Source of the DNA: Halalkaliarchaeum sp. AArc-CO
GTDB taxonomy: Archaea > Halobacteriota > Halobacteria > Halobacteriales > Haloferacaceae
DNA length: 64,000 bases
NCBI RefSeq assembly: GCF_024972735.1
Contig: NZ_CP087723.1
Location: 2,852,001 to 2,916,000, forward strand
Reading direction: 5' to 3'
A program made the translations under genes and the position numbers. Below, piece by piece: positions 12,328 to 13,848 of the stretch. Under the pieces are notes generated by a model, which worked only from the letters and a program-made list of their open reading frames with translations, searched no databases and was not told where the DNA came from. Position 1 is the first letter of the stretch. Each line of letters starts with the position of its first letter.

Positions 12328-13461
12328 TCACCCCCGAGCGACCTCGAGAGCGTCCTCGAGCGCGGCAACTGCCTGATCGACGTCGTCGGCCGTGGTATGC
12401 CGCCCCATCGAGAACCGGACGGCGCCCAGTGCGGTCTGGGCGTCGATGCCCATCTCGGTGAGCACCCTCGACGGGGAGGCCGTTCCGGTATGGCACGCCG
12501 AGCCGCTGGAGACGGCGATCCCCCGGTCGGCCAGCGCGTCGACGAGCTGGGCGCCCGTCGCCTCCTCGAAACAGAACAGTGCATATCCCGGCAGCCGCTG
12601 TTCGGGGTGGCCGACGAGCGTCCCTCCGCTCACCTCCCGGACCCGTCGCACGAAGTCGTCACGCAACCCGGACAACCTGTCGGCACGCTCCTCGAGATCT
12701 GCCCGGGCCCGCTCGGCGGCGACGCCCATCCCGACGAGACCGGGGACGTTTTCGGTTCCGCTGCGGAGACCACCCTCCTGGCCCCCGCCGTGGATCAGCG
12801 GTTCCAGTTCGGCCTCGAGGCCGTCGCGGACGTACAGCGCACCCACGCCCTTGGGGCCATAGAACCTGTGTGCGCTGAGGCTCGCCATGTCCAGGCCGAG
12901 CCGCTCGACGTCGACGGGGAGTTTCCCCGCACTCTGGACGGTGTCCGAGTGCACGAGGGCACCGTGCTCGTGAGCGACCGTCGCAATCTCCTGTAGCGGC
13001 TGCACGACGCCCGTCTCGTTGTTGGCGTGCATGATCGAGACGATCACCGTGTCCGAGCGGATCGCGTCTTCGACAGCGGCCGGATCGACTCGGCCGTCCT
13101 CACGTGGCGCAATACGCGTCACTTCGACGCCACGCCGTTCGAGCCAGCGACACGTCTCTTCGATCGCATCGTGTTCCATCGCCGAGGTGACCACGTGTCC
13201 GCGGTTCTCGCCGGCGGCGGTGTCCACGATCCCTTTCAGTGCCAGATTGTCGGCCTCGCTTCCGCCGCCGGTGAAGACGATCGACGCCGGCGGGGCTCCG
13301 ATGAGGGTTGCAACCCGTTCTCGTGCGGTTTCCAGTCCCTCGGCTGCGCGGTCGGCGTATCCTGCAGCAGGGTTGTGGTAGTGCGATTCCAGGTACGGTT
13401 CCATAGCGGCGACGACGTCTTCGTGTGGCAGGGTCGTCGCGGCGTGGTCGAGATAGATCAT
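12328..13461 (-). CDS. NifS/IscS-like cysteine desulfurase with Lys-to-Arg change at the PLP site
   Basis: 377 residues of a class V aminotransferase fold closely following NifS/IscS: Tyr-Leu-Asp-His-Ala-Ala-Thr-Thr start, His in Ala-Met-Glu-His-Asp-Ala, Asn-Asn-Glu-Thr-Gly at 147-151, Asp173 and Gln176 for PLP binding, and the persulfide Cys323 in Ser-Ser-Gly-Ser-Ala-Cys. The Schiff-base position, normally His-Lys before a Tyr-Gly-Pro-Lys-Gly motif, is His198-Arg199 here, with codon AGG (12865-12867). Without the lysine the usual cysteine-to-alanine chemistry should fail, so the protein may be inactive, repurposed or newly mutated. A DsrE-like gene lies 63 bases upstream on the same strand. 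Confidence 0.9.
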   Translation of the reverse strand: MIYLDHAATTLPHEDVVAAMEPYLESHYHNPAAGYADRAAEGLETARERVATLIGAPPASIVFTGGGSEADNLALKGIVDTAAGENRGHVVTSAMEHDAIEETCRWLERRGVEVTRIAPREDGRVDPAAVEDAIRSDTVIVSIMHANNETGVVQPLQEIATVAHEHGALVHSDTVQSAGKLPVDVERLGLDMASLSAHRFYGPKGVGALYVRDGLEAELEPLIHGGGQEGGLRSGTENVPGLVGMGVAAERARADLEERADRLSGLRDDFVRRVREVSGGTLVGHPEQRLPGYALFCFEEATGAQLVDALADRGIAVSSGSACHTGTASPSRVLTEMGIDAQTALGAVRFSMGRHTTADDVDQAVAALEDALEVARG

Positions 13462-13524: not shown

Positions 13525-13848
13525 CTATCCGATCGTGAGCACTTCATCGCCCTCTTCGACGATCCGGAGGAGTTCACCCATCGTCGACCGGGGCCGGAGG
13601 TCGTCCGGTTCGATGTCGCGGGAGTCGAGACACGTCCCACAGGCCTCCAGTTCCCCGCCGTTCCGGGTGTATTTCACCATCACTCCGTGCGGGTTGAACT
13701 TCTCGGTCTCGATGTCCGGCGCCTCTACCCCGTCACCCAGCAGGAAGGTCTCCACGTCGTGGCCGTTCTCGAGGGCAGTGTTCGCCAACCTGAAGGCGTT
13801 CCATACGCGTTCGGCGTCGTTCGTCTCGATGATGAGGTTTAATTGCAT
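13525..13848 (-). CDS. DsrE/DsrF-like sulfur-relay protein
   Basis: 107 residues of the DsrE fold: a beta-strand N-terminus (Leu-Asn-Leu-Ile-Ile-Glu-Thr), Ala-Phe-Arg-Leu-Ala-Asn-Thr-Ala helix, Val-Glu-Thr-Phe-Leu-Leu-Gly-Asp-Gly-Val, and a Cys-Gly-Thr-Cys-Leu-Asp-Ser-Arg motif near residue 70 where the family keeps its reactive Cys. Such proteins accept persulfide sulfur and hand it on. It is encoded just before the cysteine desulfurase-like gene and probably shares its transcript, which suggests a donor-acceptor pair. Confidence 0.82.
   Translation of the reverse strand: MQLNLIIETNDAERVWNAFRLANTALENGHDVETFLLGDGVEAPDIETEKFNPHGVMVKYTRNGGELEACGTCLDSRDIEPDDLRPRSTMGELLRIVEEGDEVLTIG

Follow-up and report, generated by a model that had tools for sequence, protein, structure and literature searches.

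A gene in the chromosome of the haloarchaeon Halalkaliarchaeum sp. AArc-CO raises the question of what becomes of a cysteine desulfurase when the lysine that holds its cofactor is replaced by arginine. The gene lies in a window of 64,000 nucleotides, which is the whole stretch of DNA analysed here (contig NZ_CP087723.1, positions 2,852,001 to 2,916,000). A sequence-only reading of this window had described a NifS/IscS-like protein with Arg at the pyridoxal phosphate (PLP) Schiff-base position, and had proposed that the protein is dead, has a new role such as that of a persulfide carrier, or works in a changed way with the adjacent DsrE protein. We found the open reading frame, its strand and length, and the AGG codon at the Schiff-base site to be exactly as described. 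The features on which the analysis turns are as follows (positions in the window; residue assignments by alignment).

12328 to 13461, minus strand: NifS/IscS-family protein (aminotransferase class V, fold type I), 377 amino acids
12865 to 12867, minus strand: AGG (Arg) as codon 199, the Schiff-base site for PLP; 6 of 6 orthologues have AAG
12493 to 12495, minus strand: Cys323, the persulfide cysteine of the mobile loop, kept
12934 to 12936, minus strand: Gln176 (E. coli IscS Gln183), kept; altered in both old Lys-less clades described below
12943 to 12945, minus strand: Asp173, the aspartate of the PLP pyridine nitrogen, kept
13171 to 13173, minus strand: His97, the PLP-stacking histidine, kept
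12415 to 12417, minus strand: Arg349 (E. coli IscS Arg354), kept; both old Lys-less clades have Leu here
13525 to 13848, minus strand: DsrE/DsrF-family protein, 107 amino acids, with an ACGTC motif (Pfam PF02635, 9.5e-10)

By sequence family, the 377-residue protein is a NifS/IscS (class I) cysteine desulfurase. It matched Pfam PF00266 with full-length homology (2.5e-81) and E. coli IscS at an E value of 8e-85, and its best NCBIfam model was TIGR03402 NifS, at 410 bits, which is below the cut-off of 530.75 and thus short of the equivalog threshold. A class-V aminotransferase fold was predicted for it with confidence (pLDDT 89) from only 15 sequences, and this model matched IscS and NFS1 structures with Z scores of 51-54 (54 for human NFS1; 51.9 for Archaeoglobus fulgidus IscS). 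Judged as an enzyme from its aligned residues, the protein keeps the persulfide Cys, the PLP-binding His, Asp and Gln, and the conserved Arg of class I, and lacks the Lys for the PLP internal aldimine, with Arg199 in its place.

The assignment of residue 199 is direct. This residue, in the motif SAH-R-FYGPKG, aligns with the solved desulfurases at the position of E. coli IscS Lys206, and thus sits where the internal aldimine is made; the family alignment has no gap there, and 108 of its 115 sequences carry Lys. The other key residues named in the sequence-only reading (Asp173, Gln176, the NNETG loop at residues 147-151, and Cys323) were all present, as were His97 and Arg349. Indeed, among 43 near-invariant columns (those at least 95% conserved among the 108 Lys-bearing family members), the window's protein departs from the family in a single one, position 199.

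We considered that a different Lys might serve at the cofactor, an outcome for which the sequence-only reading had allowed. The protein has only three Lys residues (76, 180 and 204), each aligned with a Lys of the Lys-bearing orthologues, and position 204 is Asn in three of those orthologues. Since all three fall at positions usual for the family, and some orthologues do without one of them, we rejected a substitute Schiff-base Lys on sequence grounds; none is apparent. We also note that the Asn-bearing orthologues (L117, L118 and L119) have YGPNG in place of the near-invariant YGPKG (K204N).

To find out if Arg199 is shared by relatives, we ran searches against the genus, 170 genomes of the haloarchaeon's family, two further families and an order-level sample. 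The six closest orthologues (G392, G474, G262, G067, G523 and G341), one from the same genus and the others from the same family and other families, were 62-66% identical to the window's protein and share its fold motifs and persulfide Cys, but all six have Lys at this position, encoded by AAG. Arg199 was found in none of the near relatives within these searches; among the 80 best genome-contig loci it occurred only in a separate paralogue clade, and plasmids held no closer copy (none above 49% identity). In the tree, the window's protein is sister to the six Lys199 haloarchaeal proteins, in a clade of seven with full support (100/100). Thus, Arg199 is a private substitution explained by one A-to-G transition, the same single step from AAG that the sequence-only reading had pointed out, and this transition lies on the window's lineage, in its genome, or in its assembly. 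AGG makes up 4.8% of the Arg codons in the window's genes, a rarity that weakly favors a recent origin of Arg199, although the nifS-like gene itself has two further AGG codons.

The pace of evolution of the protein was ordinary. Its path length from the clade ancestor is 0.38 (summed from the tree), and those of its sisters run from about 0.33 to 0.52, so that there was neither acceleration nor a long relaxation. Together with the single change in 43 near-invariant columns, this path length indicates that the gene was constrained nearly throughout its history and that the change looks late, although, with identities of only about 65% to the orthologues, the age of the change within so long a branch cannot be fixed. 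Divergence at synonymous sites is probably too great for a selection test, and the 35 columns in which the six sisters agree and the window's protein differs cannot be polarised, the window's protein being the outgroup.

We compared this protein with known desulfurase-family proteins that lack the Lys. The E. coli IscS mutant K206A is devoid of desulfurase activity, although it retains some PLP and Cys-PLP intermediates arise on it very slowly (PMC9978102); it resembles the window's protein in that the Lys alone has gone from the site, but its replacement is an engineered Ala. The natural case is A. fulgidus IscS, which is Lys-less and without desulfurase activity (PMC7585200) and contributes one of its Cys residues as a ligand of the IscU cluster (PMC7585200; PMC9769115). 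It has Asp at the Schiff-base position (PDB sequence 4EB5; the structures are 4EB5, 4EB7 and 4HVK, and 4R5F is the D199K mutant). Like the window's protein, it belongs to the IscS family, has lost the Schiff-base Lys and keeps the persulfide Cys; unlike it, A. fulgidus IscS has Asp rather than Arg, has Q176 replaced by Ala and R349 by Leu, belongs to an old Asp199 clade, and forms complexes with IscU. Within the window's phylum, we found Asp199 proteins of this type in four genomes (L158, L149, L147 and, as a second copy, L130). Methanosarcina acetivorans IscS1, also reported to be without the essential Lys (PMC7585200), is linked to IscU1, unlike the window's protein.

Arg at this position recurs in the separate paralogue clade, which comprises six Hydrothermarchaeota-type archaeal contigs (L028, L029, L033, L045, L047 and L105). 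Each Arg199 copy there lies in tandem with a Lys199 IscS, and in L028:4594-7964 two genes after the pair were assigned as IscU-like from a reading of their sequence. These proteins share Arg199 and the persulfide Cys with the window's protein, but they have Ser or Cys at 176, His148, Pro322 and Leu349, and their Arg codon is CGC in four of the six sequences. Every full-length member of both the Asp199 and Arg199 clades has a residue other than Gln at 176 and Leu at 349; the two clades therefore suggest that Lys may have been lost repeatedly together with Gln176, and with Arg349 where the sequence is full length. The Arg199 clade looks like a settled Arg equivalent of the Asp199 IscS found in A. 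fulgidus.

Membership of the window's protein in the Hydrothermarchaeota-type clade is ruled out by the tree and by residues 176 and 349. Since it keeps Gln176 and Arg349, it belongs to neither old Lys-less clade, and its Arg199 arose independently of both. Measured against the A. fulgidus type, it shares the absence of Lys and neither the co-changes at 176 and 349 nor placement in the Asp199 or Arg199 clade.

The neighboring DsrE gene does not account for the substitution. It lies upstream of the nifS-type gene in the same direction, across a 63-base gap, and the two probably form an operon. A DsrE orthologue lies beside or near four of the six Lys-bearing orthologues: it adjoins nifS in G392, G341 and G523 (divergent) and is about 4.3 kb away in G474; none was found near nifS in G262, and the G067 contig ends too close to judge. 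Because DsrE accompanies Lys-bearing orthologues, the NifS-DsrE pair is older than Arg199 and does not explain it, and the proposal of a changed way of working with DsrE loses its footing. With the terms used, our literature search found no paper on haloarchaeal NifS-DsrE pairs or on natural Lys-to-Arg desulfurases. In a separate observation on gene order, four sister orthologues (L121:7177-8897, L120, L119 and L117) are immediately followed by a SAM methyltransferase gene, and in three genomes also by a PNP_UDP_1 (phosphorylase-family) gene, with DsrE mostly nearby; a close copy of either gene was not found in the window's genome.

We think it reasonably probable that an accessory haloarchaeal cysteine desulfurase of the NifS/IscS type has recently lost its catalytic activity at this locus, through Lys199 to Arg by one A-to-G transition. 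Arg199 would be unable to form the internal aldimine or to shuttle the proton; the protein may still be a folded dimer that binds some PLP, but it would not remove sulfur from cysteine at a useful rate. Among the three outcomes first proposed, a protein dead as a desulfurase fits best, given the inactivity of IscS K206A and A. fulgidus IscS. The cell would tolerate the loss through its Lys-bearing SufS and NifU_N protein, which would cover the essential sulfur supply; indeed, the genome encodes a SufS with both Lys and Cys (TIGR01979, 540 bits; cut-off 475) and a NifU_N protein whose gene is unlinked to the nifS-type gene, which would make loss of the enzyme tolerable; that the cell does tolerate it we infer.

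Moreover, the gene is sparsely distributed and appears dispensable. Only 20 of 392 genomes in the order search had any match at an E value of 1e-60 or better, and only four of these 20, including the window's own, belong to its orthologue group. The orthologue in G341 (L120:7484-8594) has lost two bases, and with them its reading frame, in comparison with the intact G523 copy, which is 94% identical to it, and it is this frameshift in a sister that makes the gene appear dispensable. The G341 orthologue also has Lys for the conserved Glu69. The nifS-type gene of the window is probably in early decay, which would leave the adjacent DsrE without this dedicated donor or charged by another; counting against decay, the gene has no stop, frameshift or second active-site loss.

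The principal competing explanation, which we consider unlikely, is that the protein is non-catalytic but selected, as a Cys323 persulfide carrier or as a partner or scaffold for DsrE or the NifU_N protein. Its open reading frame and intact Cys323 and other conserved motifs are consistent with this, and precedent exists both in the inactive A. fulgidus IscS (PMC7585200; PMC9769115) and in the independent Arg199 clade, with its neighboring Lys copy and IscU. However, both established Lys-less clades replaced Gln176 and Arg349, and the window's protein has replaced neither; Lys-less copies elsewhere can adjoin IscU, whereas here the NifU_N gene is elsewhere in the genome; and none of the orthologues has Arg199. 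A retained role of this kind, the persulfide carrier of the sequence-only reading included, is possible but unsupported.

Less likely still, the codon could be a mistake of base calling or assembly, or a mutation that only the sequenced culture carries, with AAG in the natural population. A lone substitution in an otherwise perfect active site, seen in one genome against AAG in every orthologue, is what such an event would leave, but the assembly consists of 2 contigs and is 99.9% complete, and substitution errors are rare in assemblies of such quality. Recent loss of catalysis is the most economical account, and the data do not separate it from error or a culture-specific mutation. We regard as doubtful, more so than error, a stable, selected Arg199 NifS-family protein that does without the aldimine Lys, either by carrying persulfide for the neighboring DsrE or by slow PLP catalysis that relies on His97 instead. 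Finally, an active enzyme with an altered mechanism, in which Arg199 holds PLP non-covalently while, for example, His97 transfers the proton and DsrE is possibly the acceptor, is very improbable and unsupported: the other catalytic residues are kept and K206A still slowly forms some Cys-PLP intermediates, but K206A has no measurable desulfurase activity (PMC9978102), no Lys compensates, and DsrE pairs with Lys enzymes too, so that the pairing needs no Arg.

Lys-less IscS proteins have been described before, and the question of their origin is one of how an enzyme turns into a scaffold. A loss of the Lys alone, in a protein whose sisters keep it, would be a natural case of the first step. If the change is mere decay or error, it warns that this gene should not be annotated as a functional cysteine desulfurase. 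The Arg199 clade, with its shared co-substitutions, is the better place to seek a settled Lys-less function.
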